Source: Cryomorphaceae bacterium (GTDB lineage: Bacteria > Bacteroidota > Bacteroidia > Flavobacteriales > Schleiferiaceae). Taken from it: a stretch of DNA of 9,210 nucleotides. Position 1 is the stretch's first letter; every line of letters starts with the position of its first letter. The stretch lies in assembly GCA_003507115.1 (NCBI GenBank), contig DNWN01000127.1:1-9210 (forward strand). Reading direction: 5' to 3'. Below, one piece after another: positions 4,544 through 6,523 of this stretch. The notes below the pieces were generated by a model, which saw only the letters and a list, made by a program, of their open reading frames with translations, did no database searches and was not told where the DNA came from. Position numbers and translations under genes: made by a program.

Positions 4544-6523
4544 ATGGATGCGACTCCCTACATCGTTTCGGCTAGAAAGTACCGCCCCAAAGACTTTGAG
4601 GCGGTGGTTGGCCAAAGCCATGTCACGGAGACTTTAGAGCATGAGGTCGCGAGTGGACACCTCGCCCAAGCTCTTTTGTTTACGGGGCCTCGGGGGGTTG
4701 GAAAAACGACGTGCGCGCGGATTTTGGCCCGGCGCATTAACGAAGTGCATACGGGTCCTGATCAGGACTACAGCCTGAATATTTTTGAGTTGGATGCCGC
4801 CTCCAACAACTCGGTCGATGACATCCGTCAGCTCATAGATCAGGTGCGCTTTGCCCCGCAAGTAGGTCGGTTCAAAGTCTACATCATCGATGAGGTGCAT
4901 ATGCTTTCGCAAGCGGCGTTCAATGCCTTCTTGAAGACCTTGGAAGAGCCGCCCGCGCATGCGATTTTTATCTTGGCGACGACCGAGAAGCACAAGGTGC
5001 TCCCAACGATTCTTTCGCGCTGCCAAATTTTTGACTTCAAGCGCATTGGACTCCAGGATATTGCCCACCATTTGCGTTTTGTCGCAGATAAGGAGGGCAT
5101 TCAAGCCGAAGAAGAGGCCTTGCATGCCATCGCGGAGAAAGCGGATGGGGCCTTGCGTGATTCCTTGTCTATTTTCGACCGGGTCACTGCCTTTGCCCAA
5201 GGGGGAGTGATGACCTATGAGATGGTCCGAGAGAATCTCCAACTCCTGGACCATTCTGTCTATTTCCTCAGCGTTCAACATATGTTGGCCGGGGACTCAA
5301 CGGCCCTAATGCTTCAGATCAACGATGTATCGGATCAAGGATTTGATCTGCATCGCTACATTGGCGGTTTAGCGAGCCACGTTCGGGATGTCTTGTTAGC
5401 CAAACACGATGCTACCGTGGCCCTAATGGATGTTCCGGACACCTTAAAGGCGCAGTACAGAGAGCAGGCTGCGGCTACCTCCCCGGGATTTTTGGCTCAG
5501 GCCCTGAAGGCTCTTTCTCAGTGCGACTTGTCGTACCGGGCGAGTTCCAATCCTCGACTTCTGGTCGAAATTGCCCTCCTCGAAGTCGCGGGCTACGGGC
5601 AGGGGGAGGAACTCGCTGAAAAAAAAAAGCCTAGTTCCGCCGAGGTAAGCCCCGCTGATTCCCCCAAATCACCATCCGATTCCACTTCAAACCAATTCAC
5701 TCCGTCGGACTCCAATTCTGAAGGCCAAGAGCCGGTGAAAGAGGTGGACATTGACCCCTTGGTGGAGGTCTCAGTATCCCCAAAGCCCCCGTCTCTCGTA
5801 GACGAGCCCGCAGATTCAGAATCTGTTCCGAATGCCTCACCGCCCGCATCTGGGACACTCAAAGAGCAAGGCGAAAGGCACGTGACTCCGGCATCTTTGG
5901 CAGAGGCTTTCGATGCCCCGGAGGATGCCGCCGAGGTGAAGATGCCTGGGGAAGCCCTTCCGGTCACCGATGCAGCATCCATCCAAGCTTTGCCTGCTGA
6001 CCCGGCGCCTGCCGCCGAAGTGCCTCCAAAGGTGACATCGGATGGATCTCGTAGACCGCGCTCTTCGTTTTCTCTGAAGGCCCAACTTCGGCCCGCGAGT
6101 GCTATTTCATCTGGGGATGAGGTCTCGGAGGAGCCCGTGGAGACAGAGGTAAAGCGGCTTACCCCCTTTAGCCAAAACTCGCTCGAAACGGCTTGGTTGG
6201 ACACGGTGAAAATCATGGAAGATCGCCCCGTCATACACTCTGTCATTGCCAAGACGATCCCCATTTTAGAAGATGATTTCCGAGTACGCATTTCAGTCGA
6301 AAATCGCGTTCAGGCGGATTATCTCGAGGGTGTTCGCGACGAATTAGTCGGCGCCCTAAGGAGTATGTTGGACAATGATGCAGTTCGGCTCTTAGCTGTG
6401 GTGGAAGAGGGGGCGAGCAATGCCAAAATTGTTTATACTCCCGAAGAGCGATTTCAGTTTCTGTTAGAAAAAAACCCCCATTTGGCGGAATTCAGAAGAG
6501 AATTTAAGCTCGATTTGGAGTAA
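4544..6523 (+). CDS. dnaX: DNA polymerase III subunit tau (and probable gamma by slippage)
   Basis: The 659-aa clamp-loader ATPase of the replisome. It loads the sliding clamp and, as tau, links polymerase and helicase. Visible parts: N-terminal SARKYRPKDFEAVVGQ; Walker A GPRGVGKTT (48-56); Walker B with D116 E117 in YIIDEVHML; sensor region ATTEKHKVLPTILSRC with the S158-R159-C160 arginine finger; and the helical collar domain to about residue 350. The four-cysteine zinc module found after Walker A in E. coli DnaX is absent: ARRINEVHTGPDQDYSLNIFELDAASNNSVDDIR runs straight through. Residues about 359-540 are a Ser/Pro/Glu-rich linker, and about 543-659 a folded C-terminal domain ending FREFKLDLE-like, as I recall from Bacteroidota tau. 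A ten-A run at 5619-5628 (codons E359-K362) sits at the collar/linker border and probably causes frameshifting to a gamma form. Start ATG 4544 gives the expected N-terminus. It is 24 nt after the carotenoid gene. Confidence 0.96.
   Translation: MDATPYIVSARKYRPKDFEAVVGQSHVTETLEHEVASGHLAQALLFTGPRGVGKTTCARILARRINEVHTGPDQDYSLNIFELDAASNNSVDDIRQLIDQVRFAPQVGRFKVYIIDEVHMLSQAAFNAFLKTLEEPPAHAIFILATTEKHKVLPTILSRCQIFDFKRIGLQDIAHHLRFVADKEGIQAEEEALHAIAEKADGALRDSLSIFDRVTAFAQGGVMTYEMVRENLQLLDHSVYFLSVQHMLAGDSTALMLQINDVSDQGFDLHRYIGGLASHVRDVLLAKHDATVALMDVPDTLKAQYREQAAATSPGFLAQALKALSQCDLSYRASSNPRLLVEIALLEVAGYGQGEELAEKKKPSSAEVSPADSPKSPSDSTSNQFTPSDSNSEGQEPVKEVDIDPLVEVSVSPKPPSLVDEPADSESVPNASPPASGTLKEQGERHVTPASLAEAFDAPEDAAEVKMPGEALPVTDAASIQALPADPAPAAEVPPKVTSDGSRRPRSSFSLKAQLRPASAISSGDEVSEEPVETEVKRLTPFSQNSLETAWLDTVKIMEDRPVIHSVIAKTIPILEDDFRVRISVENRVQADYLEGVRDELVGALRSMLDNDAVRLLAVVEEGASNAKIVYTPEERFQFLLEKNPHLAEFRREFKLDLE
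5601..5648 (+). promoter_or_regulatory. Predicted dnaX slippage site: SD-like element, A10 run and stops in both other frames
   Basis: The site consists of AGGGGGAGGA (5601-5610, GGAGG core 5605-5609) and a run of ten A residues (5619-5628) followed by G, which contains the A AAA AAG heptamer (5623-5629). In frame it reads Glu-Lys-Lys-Lys-Pro. A shift to the -1 frame, or one extra A in the mRNA, reads Glu-Lys-Lys-Lys-Ala then TAG (5632-5634), a 363-aa product. A shift to the +1 frame, or loss of one A, reads through nine codons from Glu359 to Arg367 and then TAA (5646-5648). I see no strong stem-loop just downstream. This could work by RNA polymerase slippage (as in Thermus dnaX) or ribosome slippage (as in E. 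coli dnaX). Confidence 0.72.

Follow-up and report, generated by a model that had tools for sequence, protein, structure and literature searches.

RNA polymerase probably slips on a conserved run of ten adenines (A10) in the dnaX gene of a Cryomorphaceae bacterium, so that both a gamma-like and a tau product would be made. In the window (the whole stretch of 9,210 nt that was analysed, contig DNWN01000127.1), the run lies just past the collar domain, has close stops behind it in both other frames and lacks a hairpin, and most of the sampled Bacteroidia keep the run at this position irrespective of its codon phase, the residues it encodes and the frame in which tau continues. During transcription of dnaX, RNA polymerase would slip on the A10, a fraction of the mRNAs would receive an altered number of A's, and translation of these would run into a nearby stop to give a gamma-like clamp-loader ATPase of 363 or 367 aa, with mRNAs of unaltered A10 yielding the 659-aa tau. 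That the slipping is done by the polymerase and not by the ribosome is our inference, as are the existence of both proteins and a separate role for gamma in these bacteria. The features of the window are:

4544..6523, + strand: dnaX, tau-type clamp-loader subunit of 659 aa (open reading frame; NCBIfam TIGR02397, 368.6 bits against a cut-off of 250)
4544..5593, + strand: gamma part, residues 1-350, with AAA+ ATPase, lid and collar (Pfam PF13177, PF22608 and PF12169 to residue 350; solved DNA polymerase III gamma/tau chains to residue 316)
5601..5609, + strand: AGGGGGAGG, a Shine-Dalgarno (SD)-like word 9 nt 5' of the run, poorly kept in relatives (sequence)
5619..5628, + strand: A10 run, predicted slippage site, with an in-frame A_AAA_AAG inside (sequence and relatives)
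5632..5634, + strand: TAG in the -1 frame (one A added, or a -1 ribosomal shift), which would close a 363-aa gamma-like product (sequence; distribution of stop distances)
5646..5648, + strand: TAA in the +1 frame (one A lost), which would close a 367-aa gamma-like product (sequence; distribution of stop distances)
5630..6103 (end approximate), + strand: tau linker, low-complexity and barely alignable within the genus (alignment for the first part, the remainder by eye)
6104..6520 (start approximate), + strand: conserved C-terminal tau region (separate same-genus matches that start at residues 447-521 and reach 658-659)

The ten A's occupy codons 359-362 (GAA AAA AAA AAG; E-K-K-K), exactly as given by the sequence-only reading, which had also placed the run about ten residues beyond the collar; the NCBIfam dnaX_nterm match covers residues 6-348 and Pfam gamma/tau domain III residues 226-350, and the run starts nine to eleven residues past these ends. 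Both stops named in that reading are in the sequence, the one-added-A product being predicted to end in KKKA and the one-lost-A product in KKSLVPPR. In the structure matches, residues 6-316 are paired with 3-324 of the E. coli gamma chain 1jr3_A, which has 373 residues, and a 431-residue chain also occurs. As E. coli gamma has 431 residues and the predicted products would end near domain III, the earlier claim that the cut falls sooner than in E. coli, relative to the domains, fits these data. The genome of the window (1.40-Mb assembly, 80% complete) has A9 or longer at just four places on both strands, and the other three (L420 position 1452, L421 position 1498 and L430 position 1501 on the minus strand) adjoin GC-rich inverted repeats, are spanned by mechanical open frames of 67-139 aa and are probably terminator tails. 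Since these three resemble terminators, dnaX has the only A9+ run of the genome in a clear gene.

Across relatives, a run was scored as A9 or longer in an interval that starts 24 nt upstream of the residue-348 position and ends 240 nt downstream of it, and was present in 18 of 19 evaluable dnaX genes of the same genus (A10-A13), 43 of 46 from other genera of the family, 52 of 54 from other families of the order, 62 of 77 from other orders of the class and 13 of 26 from other classes of the phylum. Loss or breakage of the run in close relatives, against which the idea of slippage had been set, was thus not encountered in the genus, where the lone miss (G005) is masked with N. Summed from genus to class, 175 of the 196 Bacteroidia genes that could be evaluated have A9+ just past the collar. 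Among 80 named loci, taken as a second set and assigned to Bacteroidia by their record titles, the run was present in 57 of 79 evaluable genes, including those of Flavobacterium, Chryseobacterium, Pedobacter, Mucilaginibacter, Hymenobacter, Chitinophaga, Aquimarina, Muricauda and Robiginitalea; the 22 of 79 without a run include Prevotella and Bacteroides. Pooled, the Bacteroidia sets, which may overlap in species between named and unnamed, have the run in 232 of 275 genes. The run becomes rarer as the GC content of the gamma part rises (155/170 below 45%, 42/49 at 45-50%, 19/33 at 50-55%), yet 16 of the 23 Bacteroidia genes at 55% or above still possess it.

These counts exclude genomes without a match at the cut-off (14/79, 3/80 and 2/99 in the three genome sets), genes with less than 240 nt of sequence past the collar (one from the genus, two each from the family, order and class sets, and one from the named set), a fragment (G028), three genomes lacking a dnaX match (G007, G021, G057) and a second dnaX-like locus of G019; for the other classes, 26 of 73 matched genomes were read (6 as returned, 20 hand-picked). 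The second G019 locus (L022, G019:C4) is 47% identical to the dnaX of the window, has its own A11 and perhaps represents contamination, estimated at 3% for that genome. Further comparisons use 243 genes in which A9+ is followed by no fewer than 120 open codons (231 Bacteroidia, named set included, and 12 from other classes).

At the run it is the nucleotides and not the residues that are conserved. In the genus alignment the A's are retained while the linker 3' of them is hardly alignable, with GAA AAA AAA AAT (EKKN) in G010 and G012 and a different phase in G002 and G006. Outside this site the 243 genes have few A9+ runs: 3 across the gamma parts (248.7 kb) and 7 across the rest of tau (117.9 kb). 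The run starts in codon phase 1, 2 or 0 in 156, 52 and 35 genes, respectively, and tau, relative to gamma, is read in frame 0 in 170 genes, in frame -1 in 65 and in frame +1 in 8. The window, with tau in the gamma frame, belongs to the majority, unlike the published two-ORF dnaX genes (see below); in 73 of the 243 genes a frame change is needed to reach tau. The sequence-only reading is amended in that the site extends through the class and that gamma and tau frequently differ in frame. A FastTree phylogeny built from the gamma parts requires a minimum of 41 changes of tau frame (mean 64.9 and lowest 58 with shuffled labels) and of 45 changes of phase, though errors in the tree can inflate both counts. 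Further, 47 pairs of genes more than 80% identical differ in tau frame. Among 12 non-overlapping pairs, run length differs in 6 (e.g., two Flavobacterium with A9 and A10) and both members have A10 in the other 6, with other differences nearby. An individual difference of this kind (A9 versus A10, for instance) could stem from an assembly error; the overall pattern is judged not to, because single-contig genomes are included, among them G099 and G115, in which the run is present. Retention of the run regardless of codon phase and tau frame fits RNA polymerase slippage better than a -1 shift of the E. coli type.

The stops behind the run point the same way. Both frames other than that of tau stop within five codons past the run in 184 of 243 genes (75.7%), compared to 9.2% elsewhere in these tau parts and 60 genes expected when codons are redrawn synonymously within each gene; these nulls treat genes as independent, whereas relatives share descent. 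Where tau is in frame (170 genes), the first +1 stop comes at a median distance of 4 codons, against 12 for the null across all genes, and because a -1 ribosomal shift never enters the +1 frame, the proximity of this stop argues for slippage in both directions. In lacZ reporters with A7-A11, insertions were commoner than deletions (PMC6260861), and additions of A exceeding losses would explain the 65 genes with -1 tau against 8 with +1 tau. The same source reports that slippage by E. coli RNA polymerase is easier on runs of T than on runs of A, a preference that leaves an all-A site unaccounted for under polymerase slippage.

The strongest alternative, in which programmed -1 ribosomal frameshifting at A_AAA_AAG makes gamma as in E. 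coli with no slippage by the polymerase, is unlikely to account for the run. The window and E. coli dnaX are alike in having A_AAA_AAG in the zero frame (window codons 360-362), an immediate off-frame stop, an SD-like word upstream (AGGGGGAGG) and, as predicted for the window, a gamma/tau pair; a -1 shift would yield the identical 363-aa product as one added A, and three genomes of the same family have such a cassette with a hairpin (see below). A single tRNA-Lys (UUU) was found in the same-genus G015, among 33 tRNAs found, compared to two tRNA-Lys in Thermus (PMC5009743). Together the heptamer, the SD-like word and the single tRNA-Lys make a ribosomal shift possible in the window. However, the window lacks a stem-loop behind the run (-4.1 kcal/mol over 55 nt, z +0.63), its SD-like word is unconserved, its +1 stop is also close and its cut falls nearer to the collar than in E. 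coli. Among relatives, A_AAA_AAG is in frame at the end of the run in just 79 of 243 genes, the third frame stops at once too, and the +1 tau of 8 genes is unreachable from gamma by a -1 shift. Folding behind the run shows a weak trend (mean z -0.44 against -0.22 at the control; z below -2 in 13.2% against 6.6%; 242 genes), and an SD-like word precedes the run in 16 of the 243 genes (within the genus, 3 of 17), compared to 3 of 243 at the control position.

Two further candidates were set aside. A stem-loop or SD word of the E. coli type as a conserved signal finds weak trends only in the folding and motif counts. The explanation proposed for Thermus from its tRNA-Lys is unsupported here, as one tRNA-Lys(UUU) was found in each of G015 and the cassette-bearing G034, where the loci of 30 of 36 tRNA matches were scanned per genome.

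Less probable again is that ribosomes slide in either direction on poly(A) codons, as described by Koutmou, and that the run is conserved for this sliding. It would be equally independent of phase, and sliding onto out-of-frame stops, in several frames, occurs in E. coli systems (PMC4363877). Against it, A10 amounts to only about three lysine codons, the genes with out-of-frame tau must still yield enough of that protein, and the Thermus precedent is transcriptional (PMC1088944, PMC5009743). It is very improbable that the run merely opens the linker with lysines, or reflects AT drift or an artefact of sequencing, and gives rise to no separate product: E-K-K-K is plausible as the start of a linker and runs are scarcer in GC-rich genes, but chance and drift are ruled out by the occurrence of the run in all phases with differing residues, by off-frame stops far above the synonymous expectation and by the runs that GC-rich genes do hold, and the run also occurs in the single-contig genomes.

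Slippage by the polymerase, the favoured explanation, has its precedent in Thermus thermophilus, where dnaX undergoes transcriptional slippage on A9 (Larsen et al. 2000, via PMC1088944 and PMC5009743). The window shares with Thermus a coding-strand A run (A9+) at the border of gamma and tau, tau in the zero frame, close stops in both other frames and, as predicted, a truncated gamma-like product, and its relatives share the independence from codon phase (three phases, with tau in 0, -1 or +1). It differs in having A10 in place of A9 and a cut that would fall right at the end of domain III. The site in the window thus fits the Thermus kind, and taken together the Bacteroidia form a variant of it because the frame of tau is free, their run being traceable across the class with a drifting tau frame. 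As has been reported by Antonov et al. 2013 (GeneTack, PMC3711429), 17 two-ORF dnaX genes have a -1 change in the DNA, with slippage predicted; nine of these have 10 A's and are unnamed in the main text, which names three Chlorobi. These genes resemble the window in the 10 A's between gamma and tau and in slippage being predicted from sequence, and differ in that their tau is in -1, whereas 0, -1 and +1 interchange among close relatives here. The earlier statement that no description was known for this lineage needs correcting: a two-ORF dnaX with 10 A's, predicted to slip, has been in print since 2013, and the supplement of that paper may list Bacteroidota. The literature search returned no account of the class-wide site, the drifting tau frame or swaps of mechanism. 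Two other cases are more distant. In Blochmannia, a gammaproteobacterial endosymbiont, dnaX has a poly(A) frameshift and full tau is thought to require transcriptional slippage (PMC3017870), with the tract, unlike that of the window, in the tau-only region beyond the gamma site; the gamma of Caulobacter, also a shortened tau, is made after translation by proteolysis of tau (PMC5009743), unlike what is proposed here.

Several genes without the run have other arrangements at the junction. In three genes of the same family (L070 of G034, L072 of G022 and L148 of G040), gamma ends with A_AAA_AAG and an immediate TAG or TAA, tau is in -1, and a hairpin lies behind the junction (-19.9 to -26.5 kcal/mol; z -1.4, -2.2 and -5.5). 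These genes are monophyletic on the FastTree phylogeny and sister to four run-bearing genes, and their A run seems to have been replaced within the family by a -1 ribosomal frameshift cassette of the reversed kind, where the shifted product is tau, as mentioned for Chlorobium (PMC5009743). Three other genes (T of TAG at position 2788 of L299, 3590 of L325 and 3593 of L328) have gamma and tau separated by an in-frame TAG (context CATAGATTGC(A/T)AGG), beyond which the same frame is open for 189-254 codons; their gamma parts are 74-84% identical and monophyletic, and the tree places them near genes of other classes, perhaps through long branches. Their junction is a candidate for readthrough or AUU reinitiation. 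The pattern CATAGATTGCNAGG, used to find further members of this type, occurred in 15 of 395 genomes with a DnaX match at none of the 15 loci (tblastn, E 1e-30), and proteins closely related to that of L325 were retrieved at E 1e-150 from 9 of the 395 genomes, every one with an A9-A11 run.

A clade of 13 tips from Bacteroides and Prevotella lacks the run and has tau in one ORF. Twelve of the 13 share a GGGC-N3-5-GYYC hairpin just past the collar, often coding GRSPKR or similar (L269, L278, L283, L286, L290, L293, L295, L298, L300, L303, L190 and L194). Other run-less genes have one long tau ORF. Additionally, in a single MAG (L301, position ~3641) tau is in +1 after GAG TGC TAA with GGGAG just 5', recalling the frameshifting of release factor 2. 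Two small genomes, G086 (0.3 Mb) and G165 (0.5 Mb), both probably endosymbionts, have a gamma-length dnaX frame alone (L178 and L189; 341 and 346 codons from the start of the match), with a T11 tract directly behind the stop in L178.

Taken across the class, the distribution of runs, frames and junctions leads us to favour, with less assurance than for the site itself, a reading in which dnaX of the Bacteroidia is free of frame through RNA polymerase slippage on A9-A14, selection keeps the gamma/tau pair and some lineages have rebuilt the pair by a -1 cassette or by readthrough or AUU reinitiation. In this frame-free reading, the frame of tau would drift because slippage makes it irrelevant.

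According to a review, most bacteria beyond the enterobacteria and Thermus are without a dnaX frameshift signature and may make no gamma (PMC3290774), and the importance of gamma outside E. coli is disputed. For annotation, a dnaX of Bacteroidota that looks short or split may be intact. The Bacteroidia offer a natural series in which a single site would function unchanged, with an A added or with an A lost, and a slippage site in most of the sampled genes, together with lineages that seemingly swapped one mechanism for another and kept the short product, would argue that gamma is under selection.
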